From positions 1 to 62,016 of the forward strand of contig PMJR01000069.1 in assembly GCA_003158475.1 (NCBI GenBank): a stretch of DNA of 62,016 bases, read 5' to 3'. Below are positions 10,953 to 22,664 of the stretch, one piece after another (position 1 is the stretch's first letter; each line of letters opens with the position of its first letter). The notes under the pieces were generated by a model, which was not told the origin of the DNA, ran no database searches, and worked only from the letters and a program-made list of their open reading frames with translations. The stretch is from Ignavibacteriota bacterium. GTDB lineage: Bacteria; Bacteroidota; Ignavibacteria; UBA10030; UBA6906. The translations under genes were made by a program, and so were the position numbers.

Positions 10953-10960
10953 GTGCATGT

Positions 10961-11332
10961 GGAGATGGCGGGAGTCGAACCCGCGTCCGAAGAAAGGACC
11001 ATCGAGATCACTACATACATAGTCAGTCTTTTGTGCTTCGCTCCGCCGCAACCGACAGACAGGTCGCTGGCGAAGTAACCCCGGGGGTCCGGGTTTTCAC
11101 CCGGATTCGCCCTCTTCCTCCGGGGGGAAAAGGGGGCTATCCTGCCGGAATTCGGCGCCTCTTTGGAGTCCGGCAGGCAGGGCTCCTGGAGACGGGCTAC
11201 CTAACGTTTAATCAGGCAGCCAGTGCGTAGTTGTAGTCTGCACTTAGGTTTTTCCGCTTTATTTACGTGCAACTCGGAGAGCACGGTATGCGATCTGGAC
11301 CATCCCTACCCCGTCGAATCCGGGTCATCCCC
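10961..11332 (-). ncRNA. ssrA: tmRNA
   Basis: Minus strand starts GGGGATGACCCGGATTCGACGGGG and ends GGACGCGGGTTCGACTCCCGCCATCTCCA; acceptor arms GGGGATG/CATCTCC pair; ORF GCA GAC TAC AAC TAC GCA CTG GCT GCC TGA = ADYNYALAA at 11212-11241. Confidence 0.95.
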
Positions 11333-11366: not shown

Positions 11367-12242
11367 TCAAGTCTCTTCCACGCTTTCAATGCCCTGTTGT
11401 GATGCCGTTTCGTCTTTCGTCAAATAGGTTGCGGTGAGAAACCCCTTGAGATACTTAAACGCTTCCTCCGGGGTTTCCATGAATCGGAAGAGCCGGAGAT
11501 CGTCCCGCGTGATCATCCCGTGTGCAACGAGTTCGTCGAAATCGATCACCTTTTTCCAGTATTCCTCCCCGTACATAACCACCGCGACCGGTTTCTTCAC
11601 TTTTTTTGTCTGGAGGAGCGTCAGGACCTCCATCAGCTCGTCCAGCGTCCCGAATCCTCCCGGGAATACAACAAGTGATTTCGCAAGGTAGACGAACCAT
11701 AATTTCCGCATGAAGAAATAGTGGAAATCAAAATTGAGTTCTTTCGTCACATAATCGTTGGCGTATTGTTCGAAGGGGAGACTGATGTTCAGGCCGATCG
11801 ACTCCCCTTTCGCCAGTGCCGCTCCCTTGTTGGCGGCCTCCATGATTCCGGGGCCGCCCCCCGTACAGACGACAAACCTTCGCGGGGTGGCGAATTTCTT
11901 TGCCCAGGCCGTGAGGAGCCGGGAGAGTTCGACTGCGTCTTCGTAATACCGCGACATCTCGACCTGAATCTCGGAGTCACGCAGGGAAGTGAGGAGATGC
12001 TTTGTCGGTCTCGGGCTCTTGCGGAGGGTGGCCTCCACCTTCCTGAGATCTGCGAGCGTCTCATTCCGTGGCCGGACCCTCGCGGACCCGAACATGACGA
12101 TCGTGTCCTTGATGCGGGCCTTCCGGAACCTGCTCTGCGGCTCCAGGAATTCGGATATCATCCGTACGATGCGCGCGTCCGGGCTGTTGAGGAATTCCAG
12201 GTCCTTGTACGCCTTCGGCGGCTTTGGAGAGTGGCGCTTCAT
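11367..12242 (-). CDS. LOG-family (TIGR00730-like) Rossmann-fold protein
   Basis: 'GGGPGIMEAANKGA', 'VFPGGFGTLDELMEVLTLLQT'. Confidence 0.92.
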   Translation of the reverse strand: MKRHSPKPPKAYKDLEFLNSPDARIVRMISEFLEPQSRFRKARIKDTIVMFGSARVRPRNETLADLRKVEATLRKSPRPTKHLLTSLRDSEIQVEMSRYYEDAVELSRLLTAWAKKFATPRRFVVCTGGGPGIMEAANKGAALAKGESIGLNISLPFEQYANDYVTKELNFDFHYFFMRKLWFVYLAKSLVVFPGGFGTLDELMEVLTLLQTKKVKKPVAVVMYGEEYWKKVIDFDELVAHGMITRDDLRLFRFMETPEEAFKYLKGFLTATYLTKDETASQQGIESVEET

Positions 12243-13102
12243 GAGTCCCTTTCGGTCAGACAGTAGTATCGATGGTCCTTCCCTTCGACCCGGATCCCCG
12301 TTGCGATGATTCCCTCCCGGACGAGCCGGCCGAGCGTGTGGAAGATGGATTGTCGTTCCCAGCGGAACAGGCGGGTGATCGTCGGGACGGAAGAAACGAG
12401 CTGGTTCCGGAAATACCGCGTGAGTATCCGTGCCCGGGCTGTTTCGGGGTTCAACCGGCGCGCCCTGCGTATCTGATCGGGAAACGTCTCCCGGAGCGGC
12501 GCCCAGACGAATGTGAACGGGTCGTCAAGCTCCGCAACCTTGACGATGAACATTTTCTCCTGGAGTTCCGCCATGGCGCGGTCGAAGTGGATACGCGAGC
12601 TCTTCCCATGATTGCCTGTCGCCAGCTTCAGCCCCCTGGTCGTCTGGGGGGAGGAATCGGCCAGAGCATCCATGACGGCATGTGCCGTCCCTGTGAGGCG
12701 TCCCTTGAAGAACTCCTTTTCGTACTCGGTCTTGAGACCGGTCCTGTGCGACAACACGTAGAAGCACGGCAGGTATTCCAGTGACACCATCATCGGCCGG
12801 CGCTTGAGAAGTTTGCCGTAGTAAATCTTCCCCTCGGCGGGCAGGACGTTCTTCATCTCCCAGACGAACGAGATTCCCGGGTCGTGGTGCGTATGCTTGG
12901 GCATCACCGGATCACGCGCGCCGCAGGCGGCGTGCCAGAGGCAGGGAAGCTCCGAATTCTCCGACTTGAACGCAAAGCAGAATCCGACTTCGTTCACAAA
13001 TGAAAGTGCCTGGCGCTTCGTCGCAACGGCGCGTGACGGCATCCGCCGGTGAACCCGGTCCCGCCACACCTCGATTTCCTCCAGCGTGTAGCTGAGTTTC
13101 AT
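12239..13102 (-). CDS. Conserved hypothetical protein with C-terminal winged-helix-like segment (possibly AlkZ-related)
   Basis: 'QLVSSVPTITRLFRWERQSIFHTLGRLVREGIIATGIRVEGKDHRYYCL'; ATGA overlap with the LOG gene. Confidence 0.5.
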   Translation of the reverse strand: MKLSYTLEEIEVWRDRVHRRMPSRAVATKRQALSFVNEVGFCFAFKSENSELPCLWHAACGARDPVMPKHTHHDPGISFVWEMKNVLPAEGKIYYGKLLKRRPMMVSLEYLPCFYVLSHRTGLKTEYEKEFFKGRLTGTAHAVMDALADSSPQTTRGLKLATGNHGKSSRIHFDRAMAELQEKMFIVKVAELDDPFTFVWAPLRETFPDQIRRARRLNPETARARILTRYFRNQLVSSVPTITRLFRWERQSIFHTLGRLVREGIIATGIRVEGKDHRYYCLTERDS

Positions 13103-13110
13103 CTGCCCCT

Positions 13111-14142
13111 TCAGTTGTCGGATGAATTGCCGGTGAGCAAAACGCTCACTCCGGTCCCGCCCGCGGCAAGCCAGTCTCCCGCAGCCGCAACGTCATTCCT
13201 GACGATTGCGAGTCCCAGGTATTTTCCGTCAAAAGGAATTTCTGTCATGCTCGTGAGCGTTCCGGCTTCCATACCATTGTTGGACAGGGGAAGCGGCGTC
13301 GTTCCGGGAATTGCCCGCGGGGACTCGACGCGGGCAAGATGCCGTCTGATTTTCCCGTAGGTGTCGAGGCGGGCGATCACCTCCTGCCCGATATAGCATC
13401 CCTTGGTGAAGCTTATGGAGTCGCGCAAATCGCATTCGAAGGGGTTGTATTCATCGTTGAGCTCTCCGGGAGAAGCGGAGATTCCCCTGGCGATCCTGAA
13501 ACCCTCGTATGCCCGTCCCCCTATCCAGCGTGCTCCCGGCAGCGAATCGAGCATCTCCAGCAAGCGGGGTGCGCTGTCCTTGTCGGTGATGATGTGCGCG
13601 ACATCGGACCTGGAATCCTTGCTGTGCACGACGAAGAGATTCGTCCCCTCTCGAGCGAGAAGGACGGAAGTGCTTTCGCCGGAGGGAGAATCAAGCATCG
13701 GAGAAAACATGGAAATCATCCGAGGTCCGATGAGTGAAGCCATTACAGTGTCGCCAGTTATAGTGTTAAGTCTGATATCTTCTGTAATAGTAAATTTTTC
13801 GATCCACTGTGTCAGAAGCTGTTCGGTACCGGGCGACGTTATGAGGACAAGGGAATCTTCCCGGGAGGAGACAATGACCCGGTCGACTATGCGCCCCTTG
13901 TCGGTGACGAAGACCGTCGAGACGACTCCCCCCGCCCGGAGTCCGATGAGTGAGTTTGTCGAGAGCCGGTGGAGTAGATCGAGTCGGTCATTTCCGGTGA
14001 CTTCTATCCGGCCGAACTTCGAATTATCGGTAATCCCCATCCCACTGCAGGCGGCCCGGAATTCGGCTTCGGGATCCCCGAATGAGAGTTCCGGTCCCCT
14101 GCACCCCGCTGGACTCAAATTTGGCATCGTAAAAGATAGCAT
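13111..14142 (-). CDS. YgfZ/GcvT-domain folate-binding protein
   Basis: 'DRLDLLHRLSTNSL', 'NPFECDLRDSISFTKGCYIGQEVIARLDTYGKIRRHLARV', the YgfZ K-GCYxGQE motif. Confidence 0.92.
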   Translation of the reverse strand: MLSFTMPNLSPAGCRGPELSFGDPEAEFRAACSGMGITDNSKFGRIEVTGNDRLDLLHRLSTNSLIGLRAGGVVSTVFVTDKGRIVDRVIVSSREDSLVLITSPGTEQLLTQWIEKFTITEDIRLNTITGDTVMASLIGPRMISMFSPMLDSPSGESTSVLLAREGTNLFVVHSKDSRSDVAHIITDKDSAPRLLEMLDSLPGARWIGGRAYEGFRIARGISASPGELNDEYNPFECDLRDSISFTKGCYIGQEVIARLDTYGKIRRHLARVESPRAIPGTTPLPLSNNGMEAGTLTSMTEIPFDGKYLGLAIVRNDVAAAGDWLAAGGTGVSVLLTGNSSDN

Positions 14143-14270
14143 CGCACCCTTTCAAAGTCAAACGGGGCCGCCCTCTGGTTATTTGAACAGTTGCCGAGCT
14201 TTTACTTGCAAAGAGGGCAACATTTGGACATATTGAACGTCACGCACACACAAGGATGGAGTATCCCCCG

Positions 14271-16499
14271 ATGAGATCAAAACTTTTTCTCTCCCTCTTC
14301 TTTTCGCTCCTCGCAGGTTGCGCAACATTCAAAGAACTTCAGCCGAAACCGGAACTCTCCCCCGCTGAGCGGGGCTATATCGAGCTGAGGAACGACAAGG
14401 AGGATTTTCAGCTTGACCAGGGAAAGCAGTATTTCATCCGATTCCCGCGTCCGCTGCACGACAATTTCGACATCGTTCTCACGACGAATGCCAAGTGGTA
14501 CATGGATACGTACCTGACCAGGACGTTTGATGACGGGAAGGGGCCGATAGTCCGCATACAGGATGAAGCGTCCAGGGAGGATTCCTCGAGCGTGTATGCC
14601 GTCGATCTCTCGAGCGGGACATATTTCTGGGTGATCGACACTGTCCGGCAGGACATCGGGTTGCACCTTCAGTACAGGTACGTCCCACGCTGGCGCCACA
14701 GGTTCGAAAACGAGTACGCCGGGTTCAAGCAGACGCTTTCCGGGAGCCTCGTCGATCGCTCCACCTACAGCTCCTCGCCGGGGGCGATCCCTATTGAATC
14801 CGTCGATTTCGCAGAGCGGCTCGGGTATGTCGGCAGCCGCACCTCGAAACTCAATGCCATGAACGAACAGTTGAAGAAGCTGGCAGACCTCTTCCCCCCC
14901 GACATCGCGGCGGCGAATGACACGGCGTACCGGAACTTCAAGACCCTCCGGGCGGCTGTGGAAGACGAGATCCAATTCCAGCAGAACTACGCGGCCGCAC
15001 TCTCGATTTTCCAGAAAGAAAAGAATGCCGGCAACAATACGGGATCGTTCCTCTCGGATGCCCTCGCGTATGCGGAGTTCCTCCGCCAGCATGACCGGTA
15101 CCCCGCCCTCATGGTAGAAAAGGCGAGGAAAACGATCATGCTCCGTCTCAATGATGCCGTTCCCTACTACGAACAGCAGCTCAGGAACAAGAAGGATGTG
15201 AAACCGATTGTTCTCGATCCCCCTCTGGAACCCGTGCAACAACTGTATGCCGCCTCGGGCAGGGGAATCCCCCCCGCGTTCGAAGCACTCCGGACGTTCG
15301 TGGAGAGGTTTAACCTCGAGGCTTCGGCCCTCCAAGCGGCGACTGTGCGCCTCAAGGAACTGCACGCGCTTGTGGACAAGACCATCTCCCCACCGGCCGC
15401 ATCGTTCTACGCAGGGATCGAAGCTTCCGCGCGTGACATACGCGCGGGGATCCCGCCCCCCCAGGCCGCATCGAGCGAACGGTACCGGGGTCTCGACGCA
15501 GCCTCTCTTCTCGCACTGGAGCTCGCGAGGGCGGCGGAACAGGCCGATGATTTTCAAGCCCTGTTCGGATCCGGCTCTCAGATCGCTGCGGACATCACGG
15601 CGCGCTCATGGTGGACCGCAGAATCGAAAACACGCGATCTGTACGTGGGGAAGGACGGGAGGACATTTGCCAGCGTCGAACGGCATCGGGAGAAGCTGGT
15701 CAGGTGGTTCGAGTCCGACATTTTCAACGGGGTCCGGAACGCAACACGCGAACGGCTGGACGCGTTCGTCAAGCTGCACGAATCAACGTACACGGACGTT
15801 CCCCGGCTCTATGCCGACTCTGCATTCCAGCCCGCCTACAACCTTTCCTTCAGCGCAGCCGGGCAGGGAGTGCTCGCGCAGAAGAAGGGTCAGATAGACG
15901 AGTATATCAATAAAGTGAGACATTTCCAGTTCCCCGAGGCGGCGATACGTGTGATCTACGCTGACTTCACGCGCGATATGAGTGCCCCGGACGGAGTCGA
16001 CCGGGCGCGGGCCGTCGTCGAACACGGAAAGGAATACAAGGGGAACGACAAACAGTTAACGGCGATCGTGAGCGAGTGCGATCCCGCTGCGGCGAAGTGG
16101 ATCGTCCACCCGAAAGAATACCGCCGTCTTCTCGCCCTGCCGGTGACAAGCAACAGGAAGGGATCCAATGACTATATGTTCCGGATACGGCTTCAGATCC
16201 CGTCCGACGCGCAGTTCCCGGTCTTTGACGTGAACATTAAACTCCCCAGAGAGCTCGCCGAAGGGGCCGGCCGGGAACAGTGGTACGATCTGATCACAAT
16301 CAACAACACGCCGATTAAGAACGAGGGACGGTTCCGTATCACATCCCCCACGTCGGACAACGGGTACGAATCGCAAATCACCCCCGTGCAGATGGACAAG
16401 GAGGGACGCAACATACTCGAAGTCCGTTTCAAGAAATCGTCGTACAGGGTGTATGAAATCAGCGCCATGGCGCAGGTCCCGATCATGAAAAAGAACTGA
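14271..16499 (+). CDS. Large lipoprotein, first gene of the divergent ABC operon
   Basis: Signal peptide with lipobox 'LFFSLLAGCATF'; no recognised domain; 13 bp upstream of the next gene. Confidence 0.75.
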   Translation: MRSKLFLSLFFSLLAGCATFKELQPKPELSPAERGYIELRNDKEDFQLDQGKQYFIRFPRPLHDNFDIVLTTNAKWYMDTYLTRTFDDGKGPIVRIQDEASREDSSSVYAVDLSSGTYFWVIDTVRQDIGLHLQYRYVPRWRHRFENEYAGFKQTLSGSLVDRSTYSSSPGAIPIESVDFAERLGYVGSRTSKLNAMNEQLKKLADLFPPDIAAANDTAYRNFKTLRAAVEDEIQFQQNYAAALSIFQKEKNAGNNTGSFLSDALAYAEFLRQHDRYPALMVEKARKTIMLRLNDAVPYYEQQLRNKKDVKPIVLDPPLEPVQQLYAASGRGIPPAFEALRTFVERFNLEASALQAATVRLKELHALVDKTISPPAASFYAGIEASARDIRAGIPPPQAASSERYRGLDAASLLALELARAAEQADDFQALFGSGSQIAADITARSWWTAESKTRDLYVGKDGRTFASVERHREKLVRWFESDIFNGVRNATRERLDAFVKLHESTYTDVPRLYADSAFQPAYNLSFSAAGQGVLAQKKGQIDEYINKVRHFQFPEAAIRVIYADFTRDMSAPDGVDRARAVVEHGKEYKGNDKQLTAIVSECDPAAAKWIVHPKEYRRLLALPVTSNRKGSNDYMFRIRLQIPSDAQFPVFDVNIKLPRELAEGAGREQWYDLITINNTPIKNEGRFRITSPTSDNGYESQITPVQMDKEGRNILEVRFKKSSYRVYEISAMAQVPIMKKN

Positions 16500-16511
16500 G
16501 GACGGCTCAGA

Positions 16512-18257
16512 ATGAAGAACAAACGGCTCGTTAGTATTCTCGGCGGGGTTGGGCTCGTCGTCATCGGCGTGGTTCTCTACCTCATTTTTCACCGTCCCGA
16601 TCTTTCGGAAAGCATCGTTCTTCCGTTCATCGCGCACCAGAAACCAGCGATCGACCCGCACCTTCCGGGACCGACGCCCCTGTCCGACAAGCTCGACGAG
16701 GTCCAATTTGACGGCCTGTTCGACCTCTCGGCGAACCCGAGCGGGATCGTGTACCAGGACGGGCTCGGCGAACTCGTCGGTGTGGACCAGGACAACGTGG
16801 TGACGGTCCGTCTGAAGCCGAACAAGCGGTGGAGCGACAGCTACCAGATCACCGTGAAGGACGACAAGTACACGATTGCGAAATCCCGCGATCACTTCTT
16901 CTCGGCCGTGGACCTTCAGTTTACGATACGGAGGATCATGACGCTCGGGAGCCTCTCCCCCGACTACATACTGCTGATCCAGGCGATGGAATCGCCGGGG
17001 TTCGAGGGGCCCGATGACCGCGGGGAGATCCGGTTCAGGTTCAGGCAGAACAGGATATGGAAGGAGGCGGACATCAAGGAGAGCCTGTCGTTCAAGATCC
17101 TCCCCGAAGGGTCCCCGATGAACGCCTTGAATTACACGGTGGGGACTGCGGCCTACATGCCGCTTCCGCCGAAGGAGGGTGTGTCGAACTACTTCAGGAC
17201 CCCGGATGGGGGTGCCGCCATCCCCGACCTTATTCTCGCGCCGTTCATCGACAACAGCACCTACACCACCGAACTGAGGAATGGTGCGATCAACGTTCTC
17301 CTGGAATCCCCCTTCGGGGCCCTCTCCCCGGTCCTGACGGACAGCAGAAAGTTCTTCACGAAATCGAATATCAGCACAACGATGTTTGCGGTGCTTTTCA
17401 ATACGGGGCGACTCTCCCGCGATCAACGGACGCAGCTCCGGAGGCTGCTCGACAGCAGGCTTATCGCGGACCGCTTCTTCAACGTCGGGACACCCCAGCA
17501 GCGCCACATACAGGATTACAAAGGGAACCGGGACAACTACGCTGACTATGTGAACCACAGCGTCTTCCCCACCTCGTCGTACTACATCGAGGAGAAAATC
17601 GTCGAACCGGCCCCGGCCCGTGATAACGCTCCGGCCGACCTCTCCCTTCTTCCGGACACGGTGCGGATCAAGGCATGCACGAACTTCGGCTTCCGTGAGG
17701 AATACTCGGAACTTGCCGACATACTGAACGATCCCGCGGTCACCAGGGGGAAGGTGAAAGTGACGATCGTCGGAAACGAAGAGATACAGCGGGGGAACTA
17801 CGACGCGGTCGTCGTTGCCTTTACAGGGTACAGGAGCAACTTCCTGTTCGATCTTTATGACATATTCCTGCGCCAGCCTGACCTCGTGACCTACCGGATC
17901 AATCTTGAGGTCTCGGACGACGCCCGGGGAGCACAGACAGTGTCTCCGGGGTCGTTCCGGAGAGAGAACAACTTCTTCGGCCTGGACGCAGGGGCGGATT
18001 CGCCGGACAAAGCCGACGTCAACCAGTTCCTCCAGTATGTGTACGGGTTCATGTCCACGCGCAACATCGGCGACAAGCAGGAATATTCCCGTCGCATCGA
18101 CCAGCTCGAACACGGGCTGAGCCTCGGTGCCTGGCTCTTTTCCGTCCCTTCCCTCGCCTATTTCAGCACGCAGTTTGACAGCACAAGCATAAGTCTCTAC
18201 GGCGTTGCCTCCCAACTTTCGACGATCAAGCAATGGCGGGAAACCCCGGACCGCTGA
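16512..18257 (+). CDS. Membrane-anchored family-5-like (Opp/Dpp) extracellular solute-binding protein
   Basis: N-terminal TM; 'VTVRLKPNKRWSD...FSAVDLQFTIRRIM', 'MFAVLFNTGRLSRDQRTQLRRLLDSRLIADRFFN', SBP_bac_5-like. Confidence 0.75.
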   Translation: MKNKRLVSILGGVGLVVIGVVLYLIFHRPDLSESIVLPFIAHQKPAIDPHLPGPTPLSDKLDEVQFDGLFDLSANPSGIVYQDGLGELVGVDQDNVVTVRLKPNKRWSDSYQITVKDDKYTIAKSRDHFFSAVDLQFTIRRIMTLGSLSPDYILLIQAMESPGFEGPDDRGEIRFRFRQNRIWKEADIKESLSFKILPEGSPMNALNYTVGTAAYMPLPPKEGVSNYFRTPDGGAAIPDLILAPFIDNSTYTTELRNGAINVLLESPFGALSPVLTDSRKFFTKSNISTTMFAVLFNTGRLSRDQRTQLRRLLDSRLIADRFFNVGTPQQRHIQDYKGNRDNYADYVNHSVFPTSSYYIEEKIVEPAPARDNAPADLSLLPDTVRIKACTNFGFREEYSELADILNDPAVTRGKVKVTIVGNEEIQRGNYDAVVVAFTGYRSNFLFDLYDIFLRQPDLVTYRINLEVSDDARGAQTVSPGSFRRENNFFGLDAGADSPDKADVNQFLQYVYGFMSTRNIGDKQEYSRRIDQLEHGLSLGAWLFSVPSLAYFSTQFDSTSISLYGVASQLSTIKQWRETPDR

Positions 18258-19138
18258 TCGGAAGGGAGTATGCGCTCAGGCCGGCGATGAGCGTCGCCGG
18301 CCTGGTTGTTGCCATCTGCGGTGCGCTGTGCGCCGAACAGCGCACGGGTGACGTCATGATAGTGGAACACCCGGAGAGGCTCGTGGTGTTCAGCAAATAC
18401 CAGCAGCGTCTGACCCCCGACGAGTACCGCCGGCTCCCCCCGTTCGCTCCCATGGTCCTCCAGCGCGAACATGATCATCTGGGTGACGGCTTCACCCCCT
18501 GCGCGGCCGTGGAGATCGGCCGCGAACCGTATTACATACTGAGGAATGAGGGGGGCGGCTTCTCCGCGCGGGGCGAACCGGGGAAAACGGAGATATTCAG
18601 GAATGTTCCACTCCTCAGCGACACCGTCGTGCTGCTCCGTGGCAGAGCACTCAGGCTGCGGCCGGCGGGAGACAGGGAAGAGGTCCTGCTGCCGCCGGGG
18701 ACACGCGTAGTGCGCATCTTTGAACATGAATCAGGGACATACGTGCGCCTCTCCTCCCCCGGGGGACGCTTCGGCTGGCTTTCGCTCCCAGGCTCCGCTC
18801 GCTCCTCGCAGTGGCGCGAGGTGGAGACTGCGTCACCCGCGGGGATTTCCTCCGGTGATCTCCTCCTCCGGGTCCGGCCCGTCGTCGACGGGGCGAACGA
18901 GTCTCTCCGGCGGATCTACGCCGCACTTTCCCCTGAAACCGGCAAAGGCCAGACGCCTCCCTCCTTCCGCCTCTCCCTGTCGCACGGGGAGATCAGGTGC
19001 ATTCTCGAACCGGCCGCACTCTCCGGTTCCTTCAGCGGCAGCATGAGGGCCTTGCTCGCCGGGCTCGAACGCGTCCTGGGAGGGACGGGGCTGCACCCGG
19101 AGATCTCGGACGGCGCGATTTTCATTCCACTCCAGTGA
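18233..19138 (+). CDS. Exported SH3-like-domain protein
   Basis: Hydrophobic N-terminus; 'LRLRPAGDREEVLLPPGTRVVRIFEHESGTYVRLSSPGGRFGWL' resembles bacterial SH3. Confidence 0.55.
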   Translation: MAGNPGPLIGREYALRPAMSVAGLVVAICGALCAEQRTGDVMIVEHPERLVVFSKYQQRLTPDEYRRLPPFAPMVLQREHDHLGDGFTPCAAVEIGREPYYILRNEGGGFSARGEPGKTEIFRNVPLLSDTVVLLRGRALRLRPAGDREEVLLPPGTRVVRIFEHESGTYVRLSSPGGRFGWLSLPGSARSSQWREVETASPAGISSGDLLLRVRPVVDGANESLRRIYAALSPETGKGQTPPSFRLSLSHGEIRCILEPAALSGSFSGSMRALLAGLERVLGGTGLHPEISDGAIFIPLQ

Positions 19139-19145
19139 CAGTGAC

Positions 19146-20261
19146 GTGCGTTCGCTCCCCGCAGTAGTCCTCGAACATCTCCCGGCCGTCCTCGTCGTCG
19201 GCCTGGCGCTTGTCGCCGTCTCCGCCCTCATGCGCCGGAACGAATCGGCTTCCCGCCCGCACGCCGATCCCCTGATCGAGCGGTATCTGGCGATCGATTC
19301 GGTCGATCTGGCGAACCCGCTCGACAGGGCGCTGTTCCGGGACGCACTCGGCGTCCTCCCCCCGCCGGGCGTGACGAACATCGACTCGCTCATGCATGTT
19401 CTCGAGGAGACCCGCCTGACCCGGTTCACCGATCCGTCGAGGAAAACCGGGGGAGGACGAGCGGTGCTGACATGGGAGACCGGGATGGCGATCGTCCCGA
19501 TGTATGCGGTGTTTCTCCTCGTCTACCTTGCCGTGATGGTGTGTACGTATTTTGCCGCACGTGCTCTGGCGGTCTGGAAATTCATCGCCTGGAAACAGGG
19601 ACGGGCCTCGTACCTCCGCCGCTACCTGGCCTCGGTCGAATCGAAGGGACTCGCGGGCGCGATCCGACGGGCAGACCTTCTTGTGATGTCCGCGCTCAGT
19701 GGGATCGCGTCACTCCTCCTGTTTGCACCTGCCTATGTGATCGCGTATTCCTTCAGGACAAGTCTCGACACCGAGAGCATCCTATTTCTGATCCCGCTTG
19801 CTGTCATGTCCAACGGAATCCTGATCAACGAGGCGAACCATCTCTACACGCTCCTCGTTGCGGAGAGCCGGAAGGGATACATCCAGACGGCGATCGTGAA
19901 AGGGCTGGCTTCTTCCTACGAATGGGACACCCCCGGCGGGCTTCGCCGCACGACTCTGTTGTTCCCGGTCCGTGGGGCCCGGGGACACGTGTTCAGGGAC
20001 ATCTACCTGAACGCGCGCCTGCAGTTCATCCCGTCGATGAAAGAGCATGCGGCGTTCGTCGTCACGGGGATCGTCATCATCGAGATGGCCCTGAATATCA
20101 AGGGGCACCTCTGTTACGCATTGCTCCAGCACATGCTCTTCCGGGAGTTCGACATCGCAATCGCGATCGTCTTCGCCATCTTTCTCACCGTGAAGCTGAC
20201 GGAGGCCTGTGTCGACCTCTGGCACTCTCTCGAAACAAGGAAATATGACAATGCAGGGTGA
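19146..20261 (+). CDS. ABC transporter permease, DppB/OppB-like
   Basis: 'ESRKGYIQTAIVKGL' EAA-like loop; C-terminal 'VTGIVIIEMALNIKGHLCYALLQHML...' typical of OppB. Confidence 0.75.
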   Translation: MRSLPAVVLEHLPAVLVVGLALVAVSALMRRNESASRPHADPLIERYLAIDSVDLANPLDRALFRDALGVLPPPGVTNIDSLMHVLEETRLTRFTDPSRKTGGGRAVLTWETGMAIVPMYAVFLLVYLAVMVCTYFAARALAVWKFIAWKQGRASYLRRYLASVESKGLAGAIRRADLLVMSALSGIASLLLFAPAYVIAYSFRTSLDTESILFLIPLAVMSNGILINEANHLYTLLVAESRKGYIQTAIVKGLASSYEWDTPGGLRRTTLLFPVRGARGHVFRDIYLNARLQFIPSMKEHAAFVVTGIVIIEMALNIKGHLCYALLQHMLFREFDIAIAIVFAIFLTVKLTEACVDLWHSLETRKYDNAG

Positions 20262-21138
20262 ACGCCCCGGTGTGCGCATTCCCCTCTCCGGACTCCTGGC
20301 GGAGAGGAAAGACCTGCTCTGGGGGATACTCTGGTTCGGGGGGCTGGCGCTGACATGGGTGTGGCTCGACGTCTACCTGAATGCCCCTGCCCGCATTCTC
20401 GTCGGCGCAGCGTGCATCCACACGTTTTCCGGTGCGGTCGCCGCGGTCGTGGTGGCCCTGGTGATCGGCTGGGGGACCGCCCTCTTCCTCCATTTTCTTG
20501 AATCCACCCGTCGCAGGGGTGCTTACCTGGCGGTCTCGTTCGCGCTGAATCTTCTCCGCTCCGTGCCGCAAATCGTCGGGATGCTCATCGGGTACGTGAT
20601 CGTCACCGGGCTGACGCTGAATGAAGCCCTCACCTCCGATACGTCCCTCATCCTCGCGACATCCCTTGTTACCGCCCTGTTTGTCTTTCAGGAAGTCGTG
20701 GACCTTATCCGCGAACGCATCCGCCACTTCGAATCACTGGAGTTTGTGAGCGCCCTCCTTGTCTGCGGGATCCCCTCACGCGTCATCATCAACAGGGAAA
20801 TACTCCTGAAGAACAGCATGCCATATCTGGTGCAGAAATCGGTGGCGCTGTTCGGACGAGCGATATTCCTCATCTGCAGCATCGACTTCATAGTCTCCGT
20901 CGGGCTCTCGGCGGAGGTCAGCCTCTCGAACCTCCCCGTCACGCTGGGGAGCATGCTCGCCAAGCTCGACAGCAAACAGGATATTCTCGCGATAGGAACG
21001 TCGTTCACCGACCTGCGGGTGGTCCCCACGCTCTTCGTCGAGCACCTGCAGGGGATCAGCGTCGCGTTTCTGATCGTCTATACGCTCCTGTGCGTGTACA
21101 GGATTGCCAACGGACTGATGGAACGGTACCGCCTGTGA
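20245..21138 (+). CDS. ABC transporter permease, DppC/OppC-like
   Basis: Multi-TM; 'RSVPQIVGMLIGYVI', 'GIPSRVIINREILLKNSMPYLVQKSVALFGRAIFLICSIDFI'; starts inside the preceding gene. Confidence 0.7.
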   Translation: MTMQGERPGVRIPLSGLLAERKDLLWGILWFGGLALTWVWLDVYLNAPARILVGAACIHTFSGAVAAVVVALVIGWGTALFLHFLESTRRRGAYLAVSFALNLLRSVPQIVGMLIGYVIVTGLTLNEALTSDTSLILATSLVTALFVFQEVVDLIRERIRHFESLEFVSALLVCGIPSRVIINREILLKNSMPYLVQKSVALFGRAIFLICSIDFIVSVGLSAEVSLSNLPVTLGSMLAKLDSKQDILAIGTSFTDLRVVPTLFVEHLQGISVAFLIVYTLLCVYRIANGLMERYRL

Positions 21139-22664
21139 CCCCGTCGCGGTTTGACATCAGCATATCCGCCGGTGAACGGCTCCTTGTGGATGTTCACGCC
21201 TTCCCGATCCAGGAGGGGGCGATCACGTTCCTTTTCGGCGAATCAGGGATCGGCAAATCACTGATCGGCAAGGCACTCTTCGGACTGCTCGACGAATCGG
21301 AATTCCGCGTACGGGTGAACGGAATGTCGTACGCGGAATACCGGGAATCGGCCGGGGCCCGCGCCGCGCGGGCTAACGGCTTTTTCATGTTTCAGGAACC
21401 CTCCTCCCACCTCAATCCTCTCCTGACACTCGAAGGACAGATGAAGGAGGGAACGCTCGCGAGGGCTCCGGATCCTCTCGGTGCCGCGCGGGAGCTCTGG
21501 CGCGACGGGGACCGGGGGACGCTCCCACGGATACTGCCAGTGTACCCGAAGGCGTATCGCCCGAGCGGTGGAGAAAAACAGCGCCTGCTGGCGGCGATGG
21601 CGTTTACAAGGATGGACATTGCGTTTGCCGATGCGGTGGATGCCTCCGGTGAGCCGGGCGCCCCCGGTCTCTTCGTGTTCGACGAACCAACCGGCAGTCT
21701 GGACCGGGAGGCCCGGGACAGGTTTCTCGACAGGCTTTTCGCGCGATTCCGACTCAGGCATGAGACAATCCTCCTGATCACGCACGATTACGGAATGATC
21801 TCCTATGTCCAGTCCCGCCACCGCGACATCGGGAAGGACTACCGCTTCATGGAATTGTTCGTGAGCGCCGGCAGCGCCCGTACGCGCGAGTTCGATCCGG
21901 CCCGTTTTCTCACGTGGCTCGGAGGCCTGCGTGCCGAGCCGGCCGTGACCGCAAAAAAACCCCTGCTCCGCGTGGAGGGCGAGATACGCGTATTCGGGCG
22001 TGTCCTCCGGTTTTCACAGCCGGGAGGGGGAACTGGCCGCGATGCTCTTGCAGTGCGGCCGGGGGAGCTGGTCTACCTCAAGGCGGGGAGCGGCATCGGA
22101 AAAACCACGGTGGCAAAAATTGTCATCGGTCTTCAGAACGCGGACCACTTCCGTCTCGAGATTGACGGCGTCAGGCTGGGGGATGTCTCGCCCCGGCAGT
22201 ACTGGCGGAGGCATCTGTGGGGAAAAAAGATGACCATGGCGTTCCAGCACGCGGACGAGTCGCTGAATCCCCGCGCAAGCGTTGACGACACCCTCCGGAT
22301 ACTCAACATGAAAACCATCCAGGACAGGAAGGGCGTTGCAATGGCGCTGGCGCGGCTCTTCGATACCGGGGAGATCCCGGGGCTCACGGGAAAAAAGGTG
22401 TGGCAACTCAGCGGCGGGCAGAAACAGCGGTTGAATCTTCTCCGCGCATTTGCTCTGGAGACTCCTCTCATCATACTCGATGAGCCGCTGAGTGCGCTCG
22501 ATTTCGAGAGTATTGATCGCGTCCTGGGTATCATGCGAGATGCCCGTGTGCGCGGACGCGCGATACTCCTGATCTCACATAACGAGGATATATTCGACAG
22601 GCTCGTCTCCCCTGAATCGGTCTATTCGCTTGAATCGGCCGACCCCTCGTTCTCCCCTTCTTGA
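21135..22664 (+). CDS. Fused double ABC ATPase (DppD-DppF-like)
   Basis: Two Walker A (GESGIGKS, GSGIGKTT), two signatures (PSGGEKQR, LSGGQKQR), two Walker B (LFVFDEPTGSL, LIILDEPLSAL); GTG start overlapping the permease stop. Confidence 0.9.
   Translation: MTPSRFDISISAGERLLVDVHAFPIQEGAITFLFGESGIGKSLIGKALFGLLDESEFRVRVNGMSYAEYRESAGARAARANGFFMFQEPSSHLNPLLTLEGQMKEGTLARAPDPLGAARELWRDGDRGTLPRILPVYPKAYRPSGGEKQRLLAAMAFTRMDIAFADAVDASGEPGAPGLFVFDEPTGSLDREARDRFLDRLFARFRLRHETILLITHDYGMISYVQSRHRDIGKDYRFMELFVSAGSARTREFDPARFLTWLGGLRAEPAVTAKKPLLRVEGEIRVFGRVLRFSQPGGGTGRDALAVRPGELVYLKAGSGIGKTTVAKIVIGLQNADHFRLEIDGVRLGDVSPRQYWRRHLWGKKMTMAFQHADESLNPRASVDDTLRILNMKTIQDRKGVAMALARLFDTGEIPGLTGKKVWQLSGGQKQRLNLLRAFALETPLIILDEPLSALDFESIDRVLGIMRDARVRGRAILLISHNEDIFDRLVSPESVYSLESADPSFSPS

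Follow-up and report, generated by a model that had tools for sequence, protein, structure and literature searches.

Importers of the Opp/Dpp/Yej clan are the described systems that come closest to the locus analyzed here. In Mycobacterium tuberculosis, OppABCD and DppABCD have an ATPase whose two cassettes are fused in a single chain, and their substrate-binding proteins (SBPs) are not known to be anchored by a transmembrane (TM) segment. In E. coli and Brucella, YejABEF is encoded by four genes and combines two permeases with one polypeptide that carries both ATPase cassettes (PMC10924461). Its binding protein, YejA, is soluble and periplasmic and has an N-terminal extension, and neither a lipoprotein nor an exported accessory subunit has been described for Yej. 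E. coli DppABCDF has two ATPases that are separate proteins and have 4Fe-4S domains at their C termini, and its permease DppB carries an RTA coupling helix (PMC12136057).

We analyzed a window of 62,016 nucleotides (contig PMJR01000069.1) from the 3.75-Mb draft genome of an Ignavibacteriota bacterium. Six ORFs on the plus strand, which we term A to F (Table 1), fill positions 14271-22664. As the original prediction had it, they are co-directional, with overlaps or very short gaps: the start of C overlaps B by 25 bases, and the start of F overlaps the stop of E by 4 bases (GTGA). (Start codons were set from homologues and from the overlaps.) Across the 44 complete loci that we analyzed for gaps, motifs, and conservation, the median intergenic gaps from A to F are 27, 21, −4, −12.5, and −4 bases, which fits a single transcription unit. 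The exceptions to this tight spacing are a few loci with gaps of hundreds of bases or with genes inserted between B and C. The window also holds a tmRNA gene (10959-11332, minus strand, tag peptide ADYNYALAA, as identified by ARAGORN).

This operon differs from yejABEF in having six genes and a TM-anchored binding protein, and its products A and C have no counterparts in the M. tuberculosis systems. We found no closely matching characterized transporter in Pfam, NCBIfam, the PDB, or the literature that we searched, and the literature search returned no publication on this gene set. We propose, with moderate confidence, that the six genes encode an importer belonging to the Opp/Dpp/Yej clan, with a tethered SBP that works together with an outer-membrane lipoprotein.

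Table 1. Genes A to F and their main features, in window coordinates.
Feature	Position	Strand	Description or basis
A	14271..16499	+	742-aa lipoprotein, lipobox LLAGC, Cys17 codon at 14319-14321
B	16512..18257	+	581-aa SBP, SBP_5/cluster C fold (from model), one N-terminal TM segment
N-terminal TM anchor of B (residues 8-26)	16533..16589	+	Predicted from hydropathy over the alignment
C	18233..19138	+	301 aa, putatively exported (signal-like N terminus), no family match
D	19146..20261	+	371 aa, GTG start, probable DppB-like permease
Coupling-helix (EAA/RTA-type) loop of D, RKGYIQTAIVKGL	19869..19907	+	Loop conservation; RTA label from PMC12136057
E	20251..21138	+	295 aa, ATG start, probable DppC-like permease
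EAA-type loop of E, FVSALLVCGIPSRVIINREILLKNS	20743..20817	+	Loop conservation
F	21135..22664	+	509 aa, GTG start, fused two-cassette ABC ATPase, OppD/DppD type
First nucleotide-binding domain of F	21162..21812	+	Walker A GESGIGKS at 21237-21260
Second nucleotide-binding domain of F	22044..22610	+	Family matches and motifs

Families and folds of the six products

B had been described as a TM-anchored SBP_5-like protein, and it is indeed a divergent SBP_5 protein that lacks a lipobox and has a single TM segment at its N terminus. A fold search with B gave 147 PDB matches with E < 0.001. The closest among those listed are a Brucella protein (4ony) and YejA (8fsq), which are SBPs of similar size. 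The best 50 of the 147 either are SBP_5-type binding proteins or seem to be so from their names, and they include MppA and NikA/NikZ-type proteins. The model of B is of moderate quality (pLDDT of 70), and the TM-scores of the listed matches range from 0.30 to 0.44. In Pfam, SBP_bac_5 matches 13 of 20 members of the B family (best E-value 1e-8), and the window's own B, at 0.044, lies under the cut-off; in NCBIfam, B has no YejA match. As judged from its model, then, B has the Opp/Dpp/Yej (cluster C/SBP_5) binding-protein fold. In B, GYRSNF appears to take the place of the acidic loop with which DppA and YejA contact the ligand (aligned by eye), which argues against an ordinary peptide ligand with a free N terminus.

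The two permeases had been called degenerate. D and E are probably permeases of the BPD_transp_1 type, and "divergent" describes them better, given how strongly their motif loops are conserved. BPD_transp_1 is found in 5 of 23 D members (best 9e-8) and 3 of 23 E members (best 8e-7), while in the window the family matches of B, D, and E are all under the Pfam cut-offs (D has no match). The best PDB match of the E profile is DppB from M. tuberculosis (E = 0.0044), and OppB is at 0.013. E has about 6 predicted TM segments, and D has a stretch of about 85 residues between TM1 and TM2 that may be an enlarged scoop region. By eye, a conserved loop of D (GYV/IxTAxVKN/GL) resembles the RTA coupling helix of DppB, and another stretch of D, IIIEMALNIQGHL, reads like a DppB motif; in E, an AMxxCGxxxxRIIN loop is conserved, and a VGLS...LGSLLAKxDSKQDIL loop is similar to the FLGLG...WG motif of DppC (PMC12136057). 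In profile-profile comparisons with the genome's canonical Dpp proteins, the shallow profiles of D, E, and B gave nothing significant, so the link to Opp/Dpp rests on the Pfam matches of some members, the fold search, and the motifs. Membership of D and E in the BPD permease family is probable rather than proven.

F is a single polypeptide with two complete ABC cassettes, as anticipated: across the 44 loci, each half keeps its Walker A, signature, Walker B, and H motifs. These motifs indicate two OppD/OppF-type nucleotide-binding domains with both ATPase sites intact. This arrangement is not unusual, as the best PDB matches of F, OppD (Rv1281c) and DppD from M. tuberculosis, are likewise two-cassette single chains, and so is YejF (PMC10924461). 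In contrast to the E. coli Dpp ATPases, F terminates 17 residues past its second cassette match, and no Pfam domain for a C-terminal oligopeptide or 4Fe-4S ATPase extension was found in it. To our knowledge, this extension is not universal in the Opp/Dpp/Yej clan. Overall, the families and folds of B, D, E, and F bear out the prediction of a divergent Opp/Dpp-type ABC machine.

A is the lipoprotein of about 740 residues that had been predicted. Its Cys17 is invariant in a 19-member alignment, and none of the recognizable lipoboxes displayed has Asp at position +2, which by the E. coli +2 rule would place A in the outer membrane. The AlphaFold model of A (pLDDT of 89, pTM of 0.60) has an N-terminal beta-sandwich, a helical region of about 460 residues, and a C-terminal beta domain. 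A matched no family in Pfam or NCBIfam and no PDB fold with E < 0.001. Weaker matches to the beta-sandwiches of PliG and of an enterotoxin C-terminal domain and to Munc13 rods (E of 0.02 to 0.07) look like chance or generic folds. A designed filament matched with E = 9e-5 overall, but no single stretch of the match was significant, and we disregarded it as an effect of helical composition.

C is predicted to be exported because of its signal-like N-terminus. It had been labeled SH3-like from a motif reading only, and this label found no support: 0 of 23 members of the C family match any SH3 model or any other family in Pfam, and C has no match among PDB sequences. A and C would be two undescribed protein families added to a well-studied transporter clan.

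Distribution of the six genes

Among 98 genomes of the source order, B is present in 21, A in 22, and both in 20 (Fisher test, P = 1e-17; counts of 20, 2, 1, and 75, uncorrected for relatedness). In the three genomes with A or B alone, the gene is at or near a contig end or on a small contig. Searching GTDB species with a profile of B gave 78 loci, from Bacteroidota (mostly Ignavibacteria), Calditrichota, Fibrobacterota (including Raymondbacteria), Zixibacteria, and Latescibacterota. The order A-B-C-D-E-F is repeated in Ignavibacteria and other Bacteroidota, Calditrichota, Fibrobacterota, and Zixibacteria (where F was not resolved as a separate match), and in a Latescibacterota genome the genes form two blocks, of which A-B lies at the end of one contig and C-D-E on a different one. 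With the same order in dozens of genomes, the six-gene arrangement is far beyond chance. The idea that the lipoprotein and the exported protein belong to the system implied that their genes would co-occur with the ABC genes, and they do: A and C are kept with the ABC genes across phyla.

A adjoins B in 65 of the 66 loci with enough upstream sequence. In the exception (L157, on the same contig as L073, from the window's genus), A and B are fragmented yet still side by side. In L073 and L157, A, B, and E are broken, and part of E seems to be fused to F in one frame; these may be assembly frameshifts or a decaying copy. In a separate case, the B matches of two Calditrichota genomes (G398:C192:8519-10255 and G399:C29:19198-20934) each contain one in-frame TAA, which may simply be the stop codon at the end of the gene, included in the range of the match.

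The B profile matches 30 of 41 Calditrichota species genomes, with one copy each (one of them, G718, also has a short second fragment). In a sample of 396 genomes from the same phylum as the window, it has matches in 12. A-B is present in a single-contig Calditrichota genome of 4,978,541 bases (G701), and the cultivated Caldithrix abyssi probably has the system, at least A and B. B is single-copy in almost all of the genomes searched and was not matched on plasmids.

In some genomes, A-B is present without D-E-F directly behind it. A search with the E profile found E in 12 of 12 such genomes, and D is present in 5 of the 5 that were searched with the D profile (all of these genomes having been chosen for carrying A-B). 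In most of the 12, the parts are found on different contigs or at a long distance from each other; L133 differs in that its six genes are all present in order, with an insertion (see below). Three Calditrichota genomes (G398-G400) have three blocks, namely A-B, D (with C alongside in the two that were inspected), and E-F, and in three other loci (L084, L087, and L088), C remains with A-B and D-E-F are elsewhere. That the parts survive separation implies that they share a function.

The system could be a sensor, in which a ligand on B is read out via D-E-F without net transport. The tethering of the SBP and its single copy in almost all genomes searched would suit a sensor, but when flanking genes were clustered, no family was a constant neighbor and the neighbors had no common function; in particular, no regulator or kinase is a constant neighbor. 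(Near 17 loci there is a response-regulator/kinase cluster, but it represents a broad family and has no fixed position.) Also, both ATPase sites of F are intact. We consider a sensor very improbable.

Some loci have other genes within or beside the operon. In L133, from Calditrichia, all six genes keep their order, but B and C are separated by two further genes (11809-14318). These lie on the same strand and encode a protein of 490 aa that by eye is an MBOAT-like acyltransferase, together with a partner of 339 aa. This is a single case, and it possibly links envelope acylation to the operon. In L107, from Fibrobacteres, the insert between B and C (11872-14127) is on the opposite strand and encodes a 751-aa exported protein that looks beta-rich by eye. 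Finally, in six Caldithrix-like loci (L101, L110, L127, L128, L245, and L247), A is divergent from an upstream gene of about 510 aa that reads like a fusion of a flavin-binding split barrel with a UbiA/MenA-type prenyltransferase.

Proposed role of the tethered binding protein

In the importer that we propose, A to F would form one ATP-driven machine at the inner membrane, of the kind formed by the type I ABC importers of the Opp/Dpp/Yej clan. D and E would form the channel and F would be its fused ATPase, while B would be kept beside the channel by its N-terminal membrane helix instead of diffusing. A would act directly with B, either by passing the ligand over or by holding B in place, and C would be an exported accessory component. 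The ligand is probably not a variable nutrient but a conserved molecule derived from the envelope (a peptide, glycopeptide, or similar); the original prediction had suggested peptides or peptidoglycan fragments. If A bridges the periplasm, molecules of the envelope would reach an ABC importer through it, by a kind of handover that we know from no other system. The system is present in most of the Calditrichota genomes examined and in many uncultured lineages. It is possible, if doubtful, that an importer-type core drives a long outer-membrane lipoprotein via an SBP tethered to the inner membrane, which would make this a new class of envelope-spanning ABC machine with a near-core role in the envelopes of Calditrichota and several other phyla.

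Our reading of the ligand draws on the conservation of B, which in 96% of the genome pairs from the 44 loci is better conserved than any other subunit. The mean pairwise identity is 0.57 for B, 0.49 for E, 0.46 for F, 0.40 for D, 0.38 for A, and 0.23 for C, the fastest-evolving subunit. Binding proteins can normally adapt freely, but in this Opp/Dpp-like system no part is under more constraint than B. An SBP less variable than the channel that it serves is more easily explained by a fixed ligand or a fixed partner than by a nutrient that varies.

The main alternative, which we think is unlikely, is a repurposed machine that does not import. The ATPase cycle of D-E-F would then move B and, through B, lipoprotein A; the work of such a machine at the outer membrane or cell wall could be assembly, extraction, or enzyme control, in the manner of FtsEX-EnvC. 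FtsEX-EnvC is an analogue in mechanism only: it pairs an ABC ATPase with a dedicated extracytoplasmic partner, but it is a different ABC type and has no SBP, and we do not claim homology. Besides the conservation of B, which is the opposite of what variable nutrient binding would give, a repurposed machine would account for the membrane tether of B, the persistence of A next to B where D-E-F sit elsewhere, the single copy in almost all genomes searched (including the 30 of 41 Calditrichota), and the long helical body of A, for which no solved fold was matched. However, B, D, E, and F are all importer-like, the coupling loops and the DppC-type loop are retained, and no partner enzyme is evident in the flanking genes.

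The locus could also encode an ordinary Opp/Dpp/Yej importer of peptides or nutrients that gained two accessory genes in one lineage, with no new mechanism. The four core components do match the family, and a fused ATPase is also found in Yej (PMC10924461). Nevertheless, an ordinary importer seems quite improbable to us, first because A and C are retained across several phyla (A in all but one of the testable loci) and because B, D, and E from the window do not reach the Pfam cut-offs. Second, the conservation pattern of B is unlike that of the SBP in the genome's own canonical system. As a control, we took the ordinary SBP_5-dependent importer on contig C25 of the same genome (G000:C25:9084-14772, with an SBP, two permeases, and ATPase cassettes nearby) and followed it in the same relatives. 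In three of them (G057, G058, and G062), the control SBP is 58, 58, and 60% identical and the control permease is 57, 56, and 55% identical, whereas B is 63, 64, and 65% identical and E is about 45-51% identical. The control is not uniform, as in a fourth relative (G084) its SBP is 8 points above its permease (50% versus 42%, the latter from a partial match). Even there, the difference between SBP and permease is smaller in the control than between B (61%) and E (48%).
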